Below, one piece after another: positions 1 to 32,298 of a stretch of 35,712 bases of DNA. Below the pieces are notes generated by a model that searched no databases, was not told where the DNA came from, and worked only from the letters and a program-made list of their open reading frames with translations. The number at the start of each line of letters is the position of its first letter. The first letter of the stretch is position 1. The stretch spans positions 1 through 35,712 of the forward strand of contig DATCBN010000109.1 of assembly GCA_036511855.1 (NCBI GenBank). Reading direction: 5' to 3'. This DNA comes from Candidatus Eremiobacteraceae bacterium (GTDB lineage Bacteria; Vulcanimicrobiota; Vulcanimicrobiia; Eremiobacterales; Eremiobacteraceae). A program made the position numbers and the translations under genes.

Positions 1-194
1 CAAGCGATGCTTGCCCTAATACGGCGACCGCGGGGCAAGCGATGTTTGCCCTAATACGGCGACCGCGGGGCAAGCGATGTTTGCCCTAGTACGGCGACCG
101 CGGGCCAGGCGATGCTTGCCCTAGTACGCCGACCGCGGGGCAAGCGATGCTTGCCCTAATACGGCGATCGCGGGGCAAGCGATGCTTGCCCTAA
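1..194. repeat. Tandem array of six 35-bp REP-like palindrome units
   Basis: CAAGC (or CAGGC) recurs at 1, 36, 71, 106, 141 and 176, an exact 35-bp period. The first unit is cut by the window edge. Each unit is a hairpin core, GGGCAAGC-GAT-GCTTGCCC, followed by TAATAC or TAGTAC and then a conserved GGCGACCGCG-type linker. Units 2 and 3 carry GATGTTTGCCC, which weakens the stem, and unit 4 has GGCCAGGC. The linker is as conserved as the hairpin, so there are no unique spacers and this is not CRISPR. The reverse strand of each unit reads GTAT or GTAC, two bases, then the hairpin, the same layout as the dispersed copies elsewhere in the window. The array lies downstream of the M3 peptidase gene and may extend left of the window. 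Confidence 0.9.
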
Positions 195-198
195 TACG

Positions 199-7031: not shown

Positions 7032-7086
7032 GTAGTAGGGTGAGCACCGCTCACCCATTTTGGGCAAGCGATGCTTGCCCTAGTAC
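7032..7086. repeat. REPIN-like doublet (GGGTGAGC hairpin + GGGCAAGC hairpin)
   Basis: GTAG, two bases, hairpin GGGTGAGC-ACC-GCTCACCC (7038-7056), spacer ATTTT, hairpin GGGCAAGC-GAT-GCTTGCCC (7062-7080), two bases, then GTAC. The two hairpins face each other, each with GTAN outside, the layout described for REPINs. It lies between the class III aminotransferase (stop at 7102) and the aldehyde dehydrogenase start (7007). A second copy follows at a 51-bp offset. Confidence 0.85.
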
Positions 7087-7137
7087 GAGGGTGAGCATCG
7101 GTCACCCATTTTGGGCAAGCGATGCTTGCCCTAGTAC
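7083..7137. repeat. Second REPIN-like doublet, overlapping an aminotransferase 3' end
   Basis: GTAC (shared with the preceding copy), two bases, GGGTGAGC-ATC-GGTCACCC (7089-7107, one stem mismatch), spacer ATTTT, GGGCAAGC-GAT-GCTTGCCC (7113-7131), two bases, GTAC. The minus-strand aminotransferase gene runs into this element and takes its stop codon (7102-7104) from the first hairpin. Confidence 0.85.
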
Positions 7138-10409: not shown

Positions 10410-10443
10410 GTAGGAGGGCAAGCATCGCTTGCCCTGTTTTTTT
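10410..10443 (+). terminator. REP hairpin with T-run, probable intrinsic terminator
   Basis: GTAG, two bases, then GGGCAAGC-ATC-GCTTGCCC (hairpin 10416-10434), then TG and seven T (10437-10443). An 8-bp GC-rich stem with a 3-base loop followed by a T-run on the plus strand is the shape of a Rho-independent terminator. It lies about 20 bases after the stop codon of the small plus-strand gene. It is at the same time a REP copy. Confidence 0.65.
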
Positions 10444-10450
10444 GTTCCCT

Positions 10451-10475
10451 GTAGGAGGGCAAGCATCGCTTGCCC
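10451..10475 (+). repeat. REP copy flanking the RAYT gene (3' side)
   Basis: GTAG at 10451, two bases, then the perfect hairpin GGGCAAGC-ATC-GCTTGCCC (10457-10475). It lies 26 bases from the 3' end of the transposase-like gene, as expected for REP copies next to their RAYT. Confidence 0.85.
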
Positions 10476-10501
10476 TAGTCGACGCGACCTTATCATATAG
10501 A

Positions 10502-11035
10502 TCACCAGAACTGATCGACGATTCCGCACCAGCGATACTCGGTCGCCTCGCGAACGAGTGCGGCCCGTACCGGGTTTTGAGTAATGTAGTACGCTATACG
10601 AAACTCCGAGTCGTTGCCTCGTAGAATTCTGTCATAGTAGCCATAATGCCAGCGAATCGTTTCGCCCATGCTCTTCAGACTCTTCATACTTTCGTGCTTT
10701 AGGGTTGCGATTATTCGCGATAGACTTCGTTCGGATGATCTAAGCTTTAGCAGCATGTGCACGTGGTCGGGCATCACGCAATAGGATAGCAACCAATACC
10801 ATCCGCGTTCGCAATACCTAAAGATAACATCGCGCATAGCTCTAGCCGCTTCAGGTTTGGCGAATATCTGGCAGCGATCCCAGACGCTGAACGTTACAAA
10901 GAAAACGCGCTGACTAGCGTAATCCAGTGACGGAAGTCGTGGCGGCGTTCGTAGTTGTGGCACACCTTCGATGTCGCGTCTCCGAAACCGCGGGGCAAGC
11001 GAGGCTGCCCTCCTAAATTGGAAACGCCGGCGCAA
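10502..11035 (-). CDS. REP-associated tyrosine transposase (RAYT, Y1/HUH family)
   Basis: Up to 177 residues, the size of RAYT proteins. The HUH metal motif is H91-V-H93 in MPDHVHML. The candidate nucleophile is Y150 in YYITQNPVRAAL, matching the YI..NP.RA pattern of the family, and the tail EYRWCGIVD resembles the usual DWRWSSY end. Such enzymes cut and rejoin single-stranded REP hairpins and are normally single-copy chromosomal genes rather than self-mobile insertion sequences. Copies of the palindrome lie on both sides. The start is uncertain: TTG 11035 gives the longest form, but its first 20 or so residues are partly repeat-encoded. GTG 10963 would give 153 residues but has a poorly spaced ribosome site. 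Catalytic residues appear intact. Confidence 0.88.
   Translation of the reverse strand: MRRRFQFRRAASLAPRFRRRDIEGVPQLRTPPRLPSLDYASQRVFFVTFSVWDRCQIFAKPEAARAMRDVIFRYCERGWYWLLSYCVMPDHVHMLLKLRSSERSLSRIIATLKHESMKSLKSMGETIRWHYGYYDRILRGNDSEFRIAYYITQNPVRAALVREATEYRWCGIVDQFW
10993..11016 (-). repeat. Degenerate REP copy at the 5' end of the RAYT gene
   Basis: GGGCAAGC-GAG-GCTGCCC followed by TCCTAA, so the reverse strand reads TTAG, two bases, hairpin. One T has been lost from the right arm and GTAG has become TTAG. The preceding CCGCG matches the linker of the 35-bp array at 1-194, which ties the two loci together. Confidence 0.75.
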
Positions 11036-11061
11036 GCGATGCTTGCCCTAATACGGTTTCC
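11020..11061. repeat. REP copy inside a larger palindrome, downstream of larE
   Basis: The REP core GCGCAAGC-GAT-GCTTGCCC (11030-11048) plus ATAC (reverse GTAT) is enclosed by GGAAAC at 11020-11025 and GTTTCC at 11056-11061. The result is a 42-bp imperfect palindrome three bases beyond the larE stop codon. Its position would suit an end-of-operon hairpin, but no clear T-run follows on the larE strand. Confidence 0.65.
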
Positions 11062-11064
11062 ATT

Positions 11065-11868
11065 TTACGGTTCGTTGAGGGAGCCCATCCGATAGCCGCG
11101 CGCGTCGATCTCGATCGCCGCGTAACCGACTTCATGCAACGCTCGCTCCACGAGCACGCGCCGCGCGTGCAGCCGCGCGATGTCCGTCGTCGGGACTTCC
11201 ACGCGCGCGACCGAACCGAAATGGCGCACGCGCACCACGGGAAATCCTGTCGCGCGTAGAAAGCGCTCCGCCAAATCGATTCTGCGCAAGGCGTCGATCT
11301 CGATGCGCGTGCCGTGCGGCACGCGCGACGACAGACACGGTGTCGCGGGTTTATCCCAGACATCGAGCCCAAGATGCTTTGCGATCGACCGCACTTCGGC
11401 TTTGCAGATCCCGGCTTCGGCTAGCGGACTTCGCACGCCAAGTCGTTTCGCCGCGCCGCGGCCCGGCCGCGAATCGAGCGGCGCCGTGCCGTCGTCGGCA
11501 TTGAACCCGTCGACGACGTATGCAAACTCCTGCTCGCGCGCGATCGCGACGAGTTTGCCGTACAGCTCGTCCTTGCAATAAAAACAGCGGTTCACCGGAT
11601 TGGCGCGATAGCGCTCGTCTTCGAACTCTGCGGTTGCGATGGTCTCGTGGCGCGCTCCAATGGCTCGTGCCAGCGCTGCCGCCGCTTCCGCTTCACCGCG
11701 AGCGACCGACGGAGAAATGCCGGTTACGCCGAGCGCTCGTTCTCCGAGCTCTTGGACGGCGATCGCGAGCACGACCGAGCTATCGACGCCGCCGGAAAAG
11801 GCGACGACGGCGCTCCCGAGCGAACGCACGATCTCTCTCATGGACGTTTCGCGACGCGCGTCGATCAT
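11065..11868 (-). CDS. larE: LarE, sulfur insertase for the nickel-pincer nucleotide cofactor
   Basis: 267 residues from ATG 11868, which overlaps the larC stop as ATGA; a start at 11892 is possible but less likely. The N-terminal PP-loop SGGVDSS (25-31) binds ATP and adenylates the P2CMN substrate, which then receives sulfur. Three cysteines stand at key positions: C95 and C98 (CFYC) and C178 (PCLSSR). C178 corresponds to the sacrificial cysteine of Lactobacillus LarE. From my knowledge of the family, the added C-x2-C pair marks enzymes that hold a [4Fe-4S] cluster and do not destroy their own cysteine. I therefore infer the cluster-dependent type. It is third in the larBCE operon; no larA lies in the window. 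Confidence 0.92.
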   Translation of the reverse strand: MIDARRETSMREIVRSLGSAVVAFSGGVDSSVVLAIAVQELGERALGVTGISPSVARGEAEAAAALARAIGARHETIATAEFEDERYRANPVNRCFYCKDELYGKLVAIAREQEFAYVVDGFNADDGTAPLDSRPGRGAAKRLGVRSPLAEAGICKAEVRSIAKHLGLDVWDKPATPCLSSRVPHGTRIEIDALRRIDLAERFLRATGFPVVRVRHFGSVARVEVPTTDIARLHARRVLVERALHEVGYAAIEIDARGYRMGSLNEP

Positions 11869-13100
11869 CGGCGCGCTTTTCCAGCGAGCCATTCGTCGGC
11901 TATGCGTTCGGCCCGTCGCATCACGTCGACGAGCGCCGCTCCGTCGCGGCGCGCGATGGCCCGCACATCCTCGTATTCCGGCCTAGCGCGCGGTCCGGCG
12001 GGTGTCTGAGTGATTTTGACGCGAAACGATCCCATATCCGAATTGATCTGCTCGACCGCGCGCACGCCGATGGTGCGCCGCGCCGTCCACCTGCGGACGC
12101 CGATGCTCGTCGTCTCGGCGAGCATAACGGCCACCACTGCGTCCGCACGCTCGAGCGGCGCCAGCGCGCGGACCACGGTTCCCGGCCGCCCCTTTTTCAT
12201 CAGCGCAGCTTCAGTCCACACGTCGACCGCACCGGCCGCGAACATCCGCTCGAAGAGATGTTCGTATATCTGCGGATTCATGTCGTCGATGTTGGTCTCG
12301 ATCTGTTCGATGTCGCCCGCGCCATCGGCGCCGGATGCCCCAATCGCATCCTCCGCGAGCACGTCGCCGATCACGACGCGCAACACGTTTGCAAATGGAA
12401 ATTCGGAGCGCCCGCTACCGTAGCCGATGCCGCGCACCGTCATCGGGGGTCTGAGCCCGAATTGAGAAACGGTCGTCAAAATCGCCGCACCGGTCGGCGT
12501 GACCAGCTCGCCGTCGACGTCTATCTCGTAACACGGAAAACCGCGCAGGAGCTCCATCGTGGCAGGCGGCGGCGACGGCAAAGTGCCGTGACCCGCGTGA
12601 ACGCTTCCCCGTCCGCACGGCAAACGCGAGCAATAGACCCGGTCGATGTCGAGCATGAACAAGCCCAAAGCCGCTCCCGCGATATCCACGATCGCGTCGA
12701 TCTGGCCGACCTCGTGAAACGCGATCTCGTCGATAGGCACGCGGTGCACGCGCGCTTCGGCTTCACCAAGGCGGTGATAGATCGCACACGCCGTCTTCTC
12801 AACCGCAGCCGGAAAACCGGCGGCGCGAACGATTGCAAGCACGTTGGCGAGTTTGCGGTGTGCGTGCGCCCCGTGACCGCCCGCGCCCGCGAGATGATCT
12901 TCGCCGGGGACATCGACGTCGAGATACAACGCGCCGACACCGCGCTTGCTTACGGATTCGGCGCGCATCGTCCAGCCTTCAACCGGCAGCCGCCGCAGTT
13001 CGCGCTGCAGCGCGTCCATGCTCAAGCCCGCGTCCACCAGTGCGCCCAATATCATATTGCCGCTCGCGCCCGCGAAGCAATCGAAACACGCGATCCTCAT
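11865..13100 (-). CDS. larC: LarC, nickel insertion protein for the pincer cofactor
   Basis: 411 residues. LarC inserts nickel into the dithio-pincer nucleotide in a CTP-dependent reaction. The N-terminus MRIACFDCFAGASGNM, the internal HFHEVG-like segment (here AFHEVGQIDAI) and the ETNIDDMNPQ motif are hallmarks of this family. It appears as one continuous protein, whereas some lactobacilli make it from two frames by frameshifting. The start is fixed by an ATGA overlap with the larB stop (ATG 13098-13100), although the frame stays open upstream to 13655. The gene ends in another ATGA with larE. Tight coupling of B, C and E suggests the three are made together. Confidence 0.93.
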   Translation of the reverse strand: MRIACFDCFAGASGNMILGALVDAGLSMDALQRELRRLPVEGWTMRAESVSKRGVGALYLDVDVPGEDHLAGAGGHGAHAHRKLANVLAIVRAAGFPAAVEKTACAIYHRLGEAEARVHRVPIDEIAFHEVGQIDAIVDIAGAALGLFMLDIDRVYCSRLPCGRGSVHAGHGTLPSPPPATMELLRGFPCYEIDVDGELVTPTGAAILTTVSQFGLRPPMTVRGIGYGSGRSEFPFANVLRVVIGDVLAEDAIGASGADGAGDIEQIETNIDDMNPQIYEHLFERMFAAGAVDVWTEAALMKKGRPGTVVRALAPLERADAVVAVMLAETTSIGVRRWTARRTIGVRAVEQINSDMGSFRVKITQTPAGPRARPEYEDVRAIARRDGAALVDVMRRAERIADEWLAGKARR

Positions 13101-13900
13101 GCGTGGCGCTCCGCGGCGCGGACCGCGACCCGGTTGATGCGCGATGCGGCGCATGCCGCGCCAAATCCGTTGTCTATATTGACGACGGCAACGCCGCCGG
13201 CGCAGGCGTTGAGCATGGTCAGCAGCGCGGCGAGTCCGCCAAACGATGCGCCGTAGCCGACACTCGTCGGCACCGCGATCACGGGTTTGTCGGTGAGTCC
13301 GGCGATGACGCCCGGCAACGCGCCGTCCATTCCCGCCACCGCCACCACGACGTTGGCTTGGCGCAGTGCCCCGATGTGCCCGAGCACTCGGTGCAGACCA
13401 GCGACACCGACATCGTCTAAGCGCGCGACATTGTTGCCCATGAGGTCGAGCGCGACCGCTGCTTCGGAGCCCACCGCGCGATCTGCCGTACCGGCCGACA
13501 CCACGCAAGCCAGGCCCACGCGCGCTTGCGGTTCGCGTTCCAGCGCGATGATCCGCGCGTCGGCGTGAAAAATAGCGTGCGGCAACTCGCGCTGCACGGC
13601 GTCGAACTGCTCGCGCGTCACGCGCGTGGCCATCACCGTTCCGGCGCGCGCGCACAGCGCGACCGCGATCTCGGCGACTTGCCGCGGCGTCTTGCCCTCG
13701 GCGAAGATCACTTCGGCGAAGCCCGTGCGTTCGGCGCGCAGATGATCGAGCTCCGCATAGTCGAGAGCATCGTCGCGCACGTGTCCGCCAAGATAAGCCG
13801 ATGCCTCATCGATCGAGACGGCGCCGTCGCGCACCGATTGGAGCAGACGCGCAAGCGTGGAGCGTTCATCGTTGGTCACGGGGATGCGGGTTTCTACCAT
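13097..13900 (-). CDS. larB: LarB, pyridinium-3,5-bisdicarboxylate mononucleotide synthase
   Basis: A 267-residue first enzyme of nickel-pincer cofactor synthesis. It carboxylates and hydrolyses nicotinic acid adenine dinucleotide to P2CMN. The C-terminal half resembles AIR carboxylase (PurE), with SAGTADRAVGSEAA and the GMDGALPGVIAGL segment. The N-terminal helical half includes the FAEVIFAEGKTPRQV segment common to LarB. ATG 13900 is used. It heads the larBCE operon and is divergent from the aminotransferase at 14058; the gap between them holds a REP copy at 13964. The enzyme that uses the cofactor is not in view. Confidence 0.92.
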   Translation of the reverse strand: MVETRIPVTNDERSTLARLLQSVRDGAVSIDEASAYLGGHVRDDALDYAELDHLRAERTGFAEVIFAEGKTPRQVAEIAVALCARAGTVMATRVTREQFDAVQRELPHAIFHADARIIALEREPQARVGLACVVSAGTADRAVGSEAAVALDLMGNNVARLDDVGVAGLHRVLGHIGALRQANVVVAVAGMDGALPGVIAGLTDKPVIAVPTSVGYGASFGGLAALLTMLNACAGGVAVVNIDNGFGAACAASRINRVAVRAAERHA

Positions 13901-13963: not shown

Positions 13964-13988
13964 GGGCAAGCGATGCTTGCCCTCCTAC
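13964..13988 (-). repeat. REP copy between larB and an aminotransferase gene
   Basis: The perfect hairpin GGGCAAGC-GAT-GCTTGCCC (13964-13982) is followed by TCCTAC, so the reverse strand reads GTAG, two bases, hairpin. It sits in the 157-bp divergent promoter region of larB and the plus-strand aminotransferase, about 70 bases from each start. Confidence 0.85.
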
Positions 13989-21735: not shown

Positions 21736-21827
21736 GTAGGAGGGTGAGCAACCCGTACTAGGGTGAGCAACCCGTACTAGGGTGAGCATCGCTCACCCAT
21801 TTGGGCAAGCGATGCTTACCCTACTAC
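21736..21827. repeat. Cluster of GGGTGAGC hairpins with one complete REPIN-like doublet
   Basis: GTAG, two bases and a truncated hairpin GGGTGAGCAACCC (21742-21754); then GTAC, two bases and the same truncated hairpin (21761-21773). A complete doublet follows at 21774-21827: GTAC, two bases, GGGTGAGC-ATC-GCTCACCC, spacer ATTT, GGGCAAGC-GAT-GCTTACCC, two bases, CTAC. The truncated forms lack the six bases TCGCTC of the full hairpin. It lies between the nucleoside phosphorylase stop and the O-antigen ligase-like start. Confidence 0.85.
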
Positions 21828-23129: not shown

Positions 23130-24037
23130 GGGCCTACGTGCTCGACGATTCCTCGCAGAAGTGCAAGCACGTCGCCCGATGCTCGGCCGACGACCGCTTG
23201 TACGTCGGCGTGATTCGGATGTGCCGCGGGAGCGTCGGATTGGGCAAGCGATGCTTGCCCTAGTACAGGGGGCGATGCTTGCCCTAGTACAGGGGTAGCG
23301 GGTTGCCCTACTACGGCATCTCGTGGGACCGCGGAATTCGAGATCACCGAAATCCCCAACACGCGCAAGCCGGCGTGCCGCGCCGCGATGACCTCCGGCA
23401 CCGTCGACATCCCCACCGCGTCGGCGCCAAGACCCGCCAGCATGCGCAGTTCTGCATCGGTCTCGTATTGCGGCCCGATCATCGCGACGTACACACCTTC
23501 TTCAAGAGCGATGCCCGCGGCTGCCGCCGTGCGCCGGGCGATGTCGCGCAATCCGCTATCATAAGCGTCGCGCATTGACGGGAAGCGCGGTCCGGGCATC
23601 CCGGATCCGATGAGCGGGCTCGTGCCGGTCAGATTGATGTGGTCGCTGATCAGCATGATCGTGCCGGGACCAAACGCCGGATTGATCCCGCCCGCGGCAT
23701 TGGTGACGAGCAGCGTCGTCGCGCCCATCATCTGCGCGACGTAGACCGGGAACACGACTTCCCACATCGGATGGCCTTCGTAGAAATGAATGCGGCCGTC
23801 GAACAACGCGACGGGTACCCCGGCAAGCCGGCCGACGAGCAGCCGGCCGCGATGACCGGCGACGGTCGTCACCGGAAATTGCGGCAGTTCGTGATAGTCG
23901 AACGCGGTGGCGTCGGTCAGCGCATCCGCGATCGGGGCGAGACCTGAACCCAAGATGATCGCGATTTTCGGCTTCAGCCTCGTATGCTTGCCGATGTGAT
24001 TCACGTTGAGCGTGACCTGATGGGTCAGCGAGTTCAA
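23126..24037 (-). CDS. Purine nucleoside phosphorylase with repeat-encoded insert
   Basis: 303 residues of the trimeric PNP/MTAP family. It contains the phosphate-loop start ILGSGL, GHRG, GRIHFYEGH, TNAAGG, GPQYET and GMSTVPEVIAARH, so the active site is otherwise complete. It cleaves purine (deoxy)nucleosides with phosphate. After the base-binding asparagine N234 (SVISN), relatives have about 12 residues before the last helix (HADVQAVV...). Here there are about 41, and residues 242-267 are the translation of three REP copies (VLGQAS repeats). The reading frame stays open. The start is TTG 24037, five bases after the murJ stop, or GTG 24004; neither has a strong ribosome site. Whether the enzyme is still active is unknown. 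Confidence 0.9.
   Translation of the reverse strand: MNSLTHQVTLNVNHIGKHTRLKPKIAIILGSGLAPIADALTDATAFDYHELPQFPVTTVAGHRGRLLVGRLAGVPVALFDGRIHFYEGHPMWEVVFPVYVAQMMGATTLLVTNAAGGINPAFGPGTIMLISDHINLTGTSPLIGSGMPGPRFPSMRDAYDSGLRDIARRTAAAAGIALEEGVYVAMIGPQYETDAELRMLAGLGADAVGMSTVPEVIAARHAGLRVLGISVISNSAVPRDAVVGQPATPVLGQASPPVLGQASLAQSDAPAAHPNHADVQAVVGRASGDVLALLRGIVEHVGP
23242..23314 (-). repeat. Three REP copies inside the purine nucleoside phosphorylase gene
   Basis: A full hairpin GGGCAAGC-GAT-GCTTGCCC (23242-23260) with TAGTAC; a copy with a shortened left arm (about 23268-23284) with TAGTAC; and a degenerate copy ending GTTGCCC with TACTAC (to 23314). On the coding strand the GTAG/GTAC-two-base-hairpin order is kept, and the frame reads VVGQPATP, VLGQASPP, VLGQASLAQ. 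No stop codon arises in this frame. Confidence 0.88.
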
Positions 24038-30345: not shown

Positions 30346-32216
30346 TGGCCCCTGTAGGAGGGCAAGCATCGCTTGCCCCGTCTGATTGTAGGGGCCGACC
30401 TTTATGGTCGGCTCCGCTTGCCCCGGTGCTGGACGCCCCTGTACTAGGGCAAGCATCGCTTGCCCATCGCGCAATCGCGATCGCGGCATTATTACTGATC
30501 TCCTCGACGGCTAGCGCCAATGCGGATCAGCAGCCAGTGACCGTCGGTCACGCGCCGATCACGATCGCCGCGGACCGCGTGATGTACTTCAGTAACGAGG
30601 CGACCATCCAAGCACGCGGACACGTGCGCGCCACGTTGCCCGACGGCGCATCGTTGACGGCCGACGCTTTTTCGATGGATCTTTCGCTTGAGCGCATCGT
30701 CGCAGCCGGGCACCTCACGATTCACACTTCTGCCGGCGATTTCTCCGGCGCCGCGATTGCCGATTTTCTGCCCTTCCGGCGCTTGTACTTCGTCCCTCTA
30801 GTCCCCGGCGCGGATCGTTGGACGTTTCTGAACGGAGACTACGCGCATCCGGAAAAAGGCCGCGAGATGCCGGGAGACGCGTTCTTCCTCGCCGACTTCG
30901 GCGCCACACGCCCGTTCATCGTCGCCAAGCGTGCGATCATTGACCCGACGACCTTCGCCCGTTTCGCCCCGGCGTCGTTCGGTCTGTTCAACGGCACGAT
31001 CCGCACGCCGCCATTGCCGCCGTTCGTCGAGAATTTCTCCGAGGACCCCAATTTCGGAGTGAACGCCCTTTCCGGCGCGACGTATGACATCCCGTACGGT
31101 TTCGCGGGTTCCGCCACTACGCTCGACGCGGTCCACTTGCGCTACGATCAGACGCTCAACACGTATGCCTCGTTCGAACATCATCTCGTCGCTCCGAGCG
31201 GCGCATATGCCGTGTTCAGCCTGAATCCGGCGACGCAACTGAACAAACAATGGAATCTCTTAGGATATGCCCCGCTTGGCGCTAAGGCCGCGCTCGAATT
31301 GACCACGCAATTGTTCACGTTCCAATCCGGGCTTTCGCAGCCGCTTTCGTCAAACGGATTCGCCGACGTCAAAGTGCTGCGCGCGTTGCACCATTCTTCG
31401 CTCACGTTCGAGCTCACGCCGCAGTACGGGAACTTGCTCGCGCCCACGCCGCGCGGCTTCTACGGCAATTCGTCGCACACGTACGCGCAGAATCATCCGA
31501 TGACGTTCGGCGCATCTTGGTCGAGCTTCGACGAACCGCTGTGGAAATCGGGACTATCCTTTCGCGTGCAGTCGGGTTTCGGCTACGACCATGACTATTT
31601 TGGCATAGGAGTGCTGCACCCCCAGACCGTCACGACCAAGTTCGTAGGCGCATCGCTTGAAACGCCCGTCTACCCCGGTCCATTCAAGTCGGGACTCACG
31701 GCAGTGTATCAAATTCAGCGGACGTGGCTAAGCTTCCCCAACGTCGTCGACCGCGACACGCTCGCCGTCACCGACAGCCGCCGGTTCAACCGCTCCTTGA
31801 TCCTGCTCGCATCCGGCGTGTTCGATTCGATTTCGACGCACGATCTGGCCGCCACGTTCTCGGCACCCAACGCGACAACGGGTTTAACCCCGTCTCCACA
31901 GTCTAACAACGGCATCGCGAATGTGGGCGGCGTTGGCATCTATCCGCAATTCCTCGGCGCCACTAACCGGGCGTTCGGCCTGACGGCGGAATTCCAACCG
32001 AATAACGCCTTTCAGATGTCGATGTCGCTGCAGCAAAACAATTACTCACCGCTTCAGACGCCCACTCACTTCGGACCGCCGCGCTATCAATTCAGCGGTG
32101 ATGTGCGGTTCAAGATCTCAAAGACGACGTCGCTCGATATCGCGCGCGCCTATTTCTTCAACTGGGGCGGGCTCGGCTGGACGCCGCGGTTCTCGCTGCA
32201 GGTGACGCCGCAGTAG
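30342..32216 (+). CDS. OstA/LptD-like outer-membrane protein, copy 2, with repeat-encoded N-terminus
   Basis: Up to 624 residues. The signal-peptide core (AIAIAALLLISSTASANA) begins only about 45 residues after the ATGA-coupled ATG 30342. The stretch before it is translated repeat DNA (GQASLA twice and the GCCGACC palindrome between). GTG 30426 would leave a shorter n-region, still with one repeat. After the signal comes an OstA/LptA-like segment (ITIAADRVMYFSNEATIQARGHVRA) and a barrel-like remainder. The end GDVRFKISKTTSLDIARAYFF matches copy 1 (ADVRFRVSRSLSLDISRSYFF), and a YDQ segment aligns too. It is last in a plus-strand run with the two propeller lipoproteins, suggesting an outer-membrane assembly or transport set. 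Confidence 0.75.
   Translation: MMAPVGGQASLAPSDCRGRPLWSAPLAPVLDAPVLGQASLAHRAIAIAALLLISSTASANADQQPVTVGHAPITIAADRVMYFSNEATIQARGHVRATLPDGASLTADAFSMDLSLERIVAAGHLTIHTSAGDFSGAAIADFLPFRRLYFVPLVPGADRWTFLNGDYAHPEKGREMPGDAFFLADFGATRPFIVAKRAIIDPTTFARFAPASFGLFNGTIRTPPLPPFVENFSEDPNFGVNALSGATYDIPYGFAGSATTLDAVHLRYDQTLNTYASFEHHLVAPSGAYAVFSLNPATQLNKQWNLLGYAPLGAKAALELTTQLFTFQSGLSQPLSSNGFADVKVLRALHHSSLTFELTPQYGNLLAPTPRGFYGNSSHTYAQNHPMTFGASWSSFDEPLWKSGLSFRVQSGFGYDHDYFGIGVLHPQTVTTKFVGASLETPVYPGPFKSGLTAVYQIQRTWLSFPNVVDRDTLAVTDSRRFNRSLILLASGVFDSISTHDLAATFSAPNATTGLTPSPQSNNGIANVGGVGIYPQFLGATNRAFGLTAEFQPNNAFQMSMSLQQNNYSPLQTPTHFGPPRYQFSGDVRFKISKTTSLDIARAYFFNWGGLGWTPRFSLQVTPQ
30354..30378 (+). repeat. REP copy at the start of OstA-like gene 2
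   Basis: GTAG, two bases, perfect hairpin GGGCAAGC-ATC-GCTTGCCC (30360-30378). It lies nine bases after the stop codon of the second propeller gene and, if ATG 30342 is used, is translated as GGQASLAP. Confidence 0.85.
30388..30412 (+). repeat. Third palindrome family, GCCGACC-TTTAT-GGTCGGC
   Basis: GTAG at 30388-30391, two bases, then a 7-bp perfect stem with a 5-base loop (30394-30412). It keeps the GTAG-plus-two-bases rule of the other REP copies but has an unrelated stem sequence. It is the only copy of this stem that I see in the window. Confidence 0.8.
30441..30465 (+). repeat. REP copy directly before the OstA-like signal peptide
   Basis: GTAC, two bases, perfect hairpin GGGCAAGC-ATC-GCTTGCCC (30447-30465). 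In the OstA-like frame it reads VLGQASLA and is followed at once by HRAIAIAALLLI, the hydrophobic signal core. Confidence 0.85.
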
Positions 32217-32232
32217 CATTGCTGTAAACTCT

Positions 32233-32298
32233 GTAGGAGGGCCATTGTACTAGGGCGAGCATCGCTTGCCCATGGGTGAGCGTTGCTCACCCTACTAC
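32233..32298. repeat. REP remnant plus REPIN-like doublet
   Basis: GTAGGAGGGCC at 32233 is the left edge of a REP whose hairpin is gone. Then GTAC, two bases, GGGCGAGC-ATC-GCTTGCCC (32253-32271), spacer AT, GGGTGAGC-GTT-GCTCACCC (32274-32292), two bases, CTAC. The order of the two stem types is the reverse of that at 7032 and 21774. It lies between two convergent genes. Confidence 0.85.

Follow-up and report, generated by a model that had tools for sequence, protein, structure and literature searches.

A RAYT gene between inverted REPs and a mostly GTAC-tagged REP population in a Candidatus Eremiobacterota genome

Can a small transposase-like gene lying between short palindromes account for the presence of the same palindrome throughout its genome? 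This question is raised by a locus in the window analysed here, a 35,712-nucleotide stretch of a 3.07-Mb Ca. Eremiobacterota genome (G000), for which a sequence-only reading had proposed that such a gene spreads the hairpins around it. The gene, at 10502–10963 on the minus strand, encodes a RAYT (REP-associated tyrosine transposase) of 153 amino acids.

RAYT identity and catalytic residues

The protein reaches the curated RAYT equivalog NF047646 at 96.1 bits (cut-off 80) and matches PF01797 in a domain search; it misses the IS200 TnpA model (29.4 bits, cut-off 55). A profile built from 14 family members recovered the Escherichia coli TnpA_REP (4ER8) at E = 2.3e-13, and 4ER8 is also the top fold match of the predicted RAYT structure (mean pLDDT 89; E = 3.1e-8; 16% identity over the aligned fold). 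The HUH motif is H67-V-H69, numbered from the GTG start, and Y126 aligns in the profile alignment with Tyr115, named as the catalytic tyrosine of E. coli TnpA_REP (PMC8266576). The gene is thus an intact RAYT, as had been read from the sequence, and the protein belongs within the RAYT/Y1 family, outside which that reading would have lost its footing. The HUH and tyrosine had been recognized correctly, but their numbering (H91/H93) rests on a far-upstream TTG. The GTG at 10963 is the likely start and is also the one retained in the genome's second RAYT copy.

In a tree of RAYTs, those of the bacterial family form one clade (support 95/98), and branching left unresolved both the order of the three congeners and their place among published RAYT groups. 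The gene is adjoined by larE and larC (nickel pincer cofactor genes; 11065–13655).

REPs at the RAYT and through the window

Hairpins lie on both sides of the gene. On its 3' side, two perfect plus-strand REPs (10410–10434 and 10451–10475) read GTAGGA followed by GGGCAAGCATCGCTTGCCC exactly; the first has a terminator-like T7 after the hairpin. On its 5' side are two minus-strand copies, one at about 10993–11017, degenerate, with the tag TTAGGA and one stem base lost, and one at about 11030–11054 with the tag GTATTA and one stem mismatch. The two perfect GTAG copies and the two degenerate ones (tags TTAG and GTAT) are therefore all where the sequence-only reading had placed them.

Recurrence of the hairpin through the window, also claimed, holds up: 17 copies are present at three mismatches or fewer against 0.35 expected, and none of 100 shuffles attains 17. 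A tandem array with a 35-nt period occupies 1–197 (minus strand) and includes two perfect copies tagged GTATTA (138–162 and 173–197). Two head-to-head hetero-REPINs in tandem, joining a GGGTGAGC stem to a GGGCAAGC stem, span 7032–7137, and a further hetero-REPIN (GTACTA GGGCGAGC / GGGTGAGC GTAGTA) lies at 32247–32298. At 21736–21827, two truncated REP leaders accompany a hetero-REPIN (GTACTA GGGTGAGC / GGGTAAGC GTAGTA). Lone REPs carry the tag GTAGGA at 13964–13988 (minus) and 30354–30378 (plus), and GTACTA at 30441–30465 (plus) and 23242–23266 (minus), the last with degraded tandem copies alongside.

A second RAYT copy (G000:C4:15012-15466; L002, L219, L220), 67% identical to the first, has a frameshift just ahead of the catalytic tyrosine, possibly an assembly error, and likewise lies between GGGCAAGC-type REPs. 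Both Y1 genes of the genome are therefore set between GGGCAAGC-type hairpins in inverted orientation with the tags outward, and no further Y1 gene was found in G000.

A genome-wide REP population

The whole-genome search that the sequence-only reading had called for returned 499 copies of GGGCAAGC-N3-GCTTGCCC at two mismatches or fewer, against 9 for the reversed pattern, so that 2 RAYT genes (one frameshifted) stand against 499 hairpins. Stem, tag, loop and placement statistics were taken from 989 kb of the genome, read directly, which hold 176 perfect 8-3-8 hairpins of the family. The repeated stems among perfect 8-3-8 hairpins in this sample are GGGCAAGC (125), GGGTGAGC (40) and GGGCGAGC (10); in these variants both arms are altered together and pairing is kept. 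The loop, read from the tag side, is strand-specific (ATC or AAC). Only 14 of the 176 REP midpoints fall inside called genes, though 84% of the sample is coding by crude gene calls. The spaces between convergent genes are enriched in REPs. A T-rich tract follows the hairpin in 45 of 174 copies. The hairpin has the general features of a REP: it is a short palindrome, high in copy number and extragenic, with an unpaired tag on one side.

Close pairs have the REPIN/BIME arrangement: 36 head-to-head pairs are at most 25 nt apart, with tags outside and an A/T-rich spacer. Different stems are joined in 32 of these 36 pairs (21.3 expected, p = 3e-5), and tandem neighbours are mostly alike, with stems differing in 8 of 36. 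Other REP families are also known to favour heterodimers, a bias that has been attributed to evasion of SbcCD (PMC3733652). In 34 of 176 cases, a full REP is immediately preceded on its 5' side by a truncated one consisting of the tag and 5' arm (for example, GTACTAGGGCAACC); truncated REPs of this kind lie at 21736–21773 and 23267–23300 in the window and at many other G000 loci.

RAYT and REP match across the family

We counted four REP families in 14 genomes of the bacterial family, G000 and its congeners G001 and G002 included. Copies of GGGCAAGC number 499 in G000, 86 and 96 in the two congeners and 2–7 in other family members. The other families peak elsewhere: GGCGGACC at 338 in G001 (39 and 59 in its congeners, 1–9 elsewhere), GGGCCGA at 359 in G002 (1 and 24 in its congeners, 0–7 elsewhere) and GCGGTCGAG at 497 in G004 and 325 in G011 (0–1 elsewhere). 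Each is the hairpin that flanks the RAYT of the genome in which it is most abundant, and its non-dominant copy numbers are 0–9 outside the genus and 1–96 within it. Copy numbers thus track each genome's own RAYT, in agreement with the claim that the genome-wide hairpin is the partner of this gene; equal abundance of the hairpin in relatives without the RAYT, which had been named as fatal to that claim, is not what the counts show.

Each RAYT locus of the family that we examined has the gene set between inverted copies of a hairpin of its own, with GTAG-related tags. These tags are GTAG in G001, G006, G008 and G009, GAAG in G002, GTGG in G003, and GGAG and GTAG in G004 and G011. In genus g3, two RAYT lineages coexist in the same genomes, each flanked by its own REP subtype and tag; hairpins with an inner A-T carry GGAG in 20 of 21 cases and those with an inner C-G carry GTAG in 12 of 12, RAYT-flanking copies counted in.

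Profile searches found no window-type RAYT in G001 or G002 and no RAYT of any kind in G005, G007, G012 and G013. In genome samples of the RAYT-less G007 and G012, no hairpin stem recurred three times. G005 (L176, L177, L182), with no detectable RAYT, has a small family, CGGTCGAA-N4-TTCGACCG, with a GTAG tag in 2 of 4 copies, perhaps a relic. Because G001 and G002 keep 86 and 96 GGGCAAGC REPs, and G005 a small tagged family, either REPs outlast their RAYT or a RAYT is missing from a metagenome-assembled genome.

Occupancy also differs between congeners. At four REP-bearing intergenic sites of the window (7032–7137, 13964, 21736–21827 and 23242), the orthologous positions of both G001 and G002 lack a REP; divergence of the intergenic DNA is too great for exact insertion boundaries to be read at these empty sites. 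The RAYT itself is absent from the orthologous place in both congeners, and REPs are present in that intergenic space in all three genomes. In G001, this place (L052:10773-11162, G001:C58) is occupied by a DUF6984 gene that has inverted GGCGGACC REPs on either side, an arrangement that looks as if REPs could carry a gene.

The tag is mostly GTAC

The sequence-only reading had described a GTAG-plus-hairpin rule. What is constant is GTA exactly six bases 5' of the stem (−6), found in 170 of 176 hairpins of the family and with no other stem in the 989-kb sample. The fourth base varies, and the rule does not hold: GTAC has 113 copies (64%), GTAG 51 (29%), GTAT 9 (5%) and GTAA 3 (2%). Strict membership of the GTAG-REP superfamily, with GTAG in most copies, is ruled out by the same counts. 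GTAC reads the same on both strands, and in some back-to-back pairs a single GTAC tag is common to both REPs (CCCTAGTACGAGGG; window 7083–7086 and L037).

GTAG is carried by 21 of 23 leftover copies of the same hairpin in G001 and G002. It therefore looks like the ancestral tag, with GTAC derived in the lineage of the window genome, as far as three species suggest. This shift matters because GTAC abolishes or redirects cleavage in published TnpA_REP assays: TnpA_Ec tolerates no change of GTAG, TnpA_Sm no longer cuts when the tag is GTAC, and TnpA_Mb on GTAC is redirected to GA or GT sites (PMC8266576). The published guide model predicts a GT or GA cut site for GTAC, a prediction not upheld in the REP flanks. 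GTAC REPs are preceded mainly by CC or TC, with G at −2 in 4 of 112. Since these flanks lack GT or GA, the simple guide prediction is unsupported by sequence alone. The base ahead of the tag covaries with it (T before GTAG, C before GTAC; p = 1.8e-9), which subfamily descent alone could explain.

The residues at the tag-contact positions offer a possible counterpart. W105, D111 and R115 of the window RAYT match the E. coli GTAG-contact positions W94, E100 and R104, and the position of Q95 is occupied by His106 (W105-H106 versus W94-Q95) and, in the second RAYT copy, by Lys. Q95 is well conserved among RAYT subclasses with typical REPs (PMC6006769). It is conceivable, if rather doubtful, that a joint recoding took the RAYT and its REPs from GTAG to GTAC, the conserved GTAG-contact Gln giving way to His or Lys and the cut site changing; were this true, the GAAG, GGAG and GTGG tags elsewhere in the family would be further steps of enzyme–tag coevolution. 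We sought a correlation between Gln95 and the tag across 82 distinct RAYTs of other phyla. Two near-identical Chloroflexi (Chloroflexota) RAYTs with His at the Gln95 place (L087, L088) have GTAA-tagged hairpins on both sides, an unproven independent case of a non-G fourth tag base. The correlation stays a lead, because a GTAA copy is found as well at a Bipolaricaulota RAYT that has Gln (L082).

Discussion

We consider it very probable that the locus is part of a RAYT/REP system, comprising a REPtron and a genome-wide REP population. This reading draws on the identity and fold of the RAYT, the REPs on both sides of it, the one-sided tag, the paired stem changes, the copy-number match across species and the lineage-specific occupancy of REP sites; the comparison of REP counts among the 14 genomes carries the most weight. 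As an HUH/Y1 single-strand nuclease, the RAYT would recognize its own REP in folded, single-stranded form: the stem is 8 bp long, the loop 3 nt, and the GTAN tag lies at −6. By analogy with studied TnpA_REP enzymes, it would cut near the hairpin and join strands, which would allow REPs, single or as inverted pairs, to be copied into intergenic regions, and the window copy may have driven the spread of its REP. Each REP family would rise and then decay along with its RAYT, and the main tag of this lineage would have moved from GTAG to GTAC. Three points count against this scheme: the REPs kept by G001, G002 and G005 in the absence of a matching RAYT, the frameshift ahead of the tyrosine in the second RAYT copy, and the CC or TC that mostly precede GTAC REPs where the guide model predicts GT or GA.

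The placement of the hairpins invites a simpler reading, that they are ordinary intrinsic transcription terminators maintained by selection, among which the RAYT happens to lie. Their enrichment between convergent genes agrees with it, as do the T-rich tracts and the terminator score of the REP at 10416. Termination, however, needs neither a one-sided GTA at a fixed distance, nor a strand-specific loop in tag orientation, nor a hairpin whose sequence varies along with the RAYT, and the T tract follows only a quarter of the copies; we regard this reading as very unlikely. Still less probable is that another nuclease of the genome moves the REPs and that the RAYT is flanked by coincidence. GTAG-tagged relics do persist in congeners without a window-type RAYT, but every family RAYT examined is bracketed by hairpins of the same kind, turnover of the REP goes along with that of the RAYT, and the genome yielded no other Y1 gene.

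The RAYT could also have been domesticated by its host as a REP-binding protein with a cellular function, in which case REP number would reflect host selection, not mobility. RAYTs are generally low in copy number and have been proposed as domesticated (PMC8266576), and one intact copy is present here. The four lineage-specific REP sites of the window, together with the tandem and paired arrays and the strong copy-number differences among congeners, point instead to amplification, and we judge domestication as the sole explanation unlikely. A host role in addition to amplification is compatible with the RAYT/REP system favoured here.

Among the closest known systems are those of Group 3 TnpA_REP/REP, REPtron Sm of Stenotrophomonas maltophilia and REPtron Mb of Marinomonas, which likewise combine a small HUH-Y RAYT with a short perfect hairpin, a single-strand tag 5' of it and REPs flanking both sides (PMC8266576). 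The S. maltophilia REP has the same 8-bp stem and 3-nt loop, so the core is not 'unusually simple', as had been suggested; nor is the two-base spacing between tag and stem unusual, being shared with REPtron Mb (PMC8266576) and with the GTAG-1 and GTAG-2 families (PMC3733652). The present system differs from the Group 3 REPtrons in its main tag, GTAC instead of GTAG, in the His at the conserved GTAG-contact Gln and in its host, Ca. Eremiobacterota. The E. coli system, with its Y and Z REPs in BIMEs, has in common the fold, the HUH and Tyr, and inverted pairs of two REP types (4ER8; PMC8266576), but its REPs are long, bulged and intolerant of a change in GTAG (PMC8266576). Members of the GTAG-REP superfamily are likewise high-copy tagged palindromes, extragenic, with a convergent bias and heterodimers; in that survey (PMC3733652) the tag changes at positions 2 and 3, whereas here position 4 varies. 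The Y1 HUH fold and a guide tetranucleotide 5' of a hairpin are shared with IS200/IS605 TnpA (IS608, ISDra2), although the window RAYT falls under the IS200 model cut-off.

One open-access literature search found no paper naming Eremiobacterota together with repetitive extragenic palindromes, which is not proof of absence. The RAYT/REP system itself is already known; the value here lies in a natural tag shift and a clean comparative set of RAYT–REP pairs. The way in which a RAYT selects its REP and its cleavage position is only partly understood, and most mutated tags have failed in vitro. The bacterial family studied here supplies natural variants, GTAC, GTAG, GAAG, GGAG and GTGG, each with a RAYT and including two RAYT–REP pairs with different tags within one genome, and it offers a clear comparative case of REP families turning over with their RAYT.
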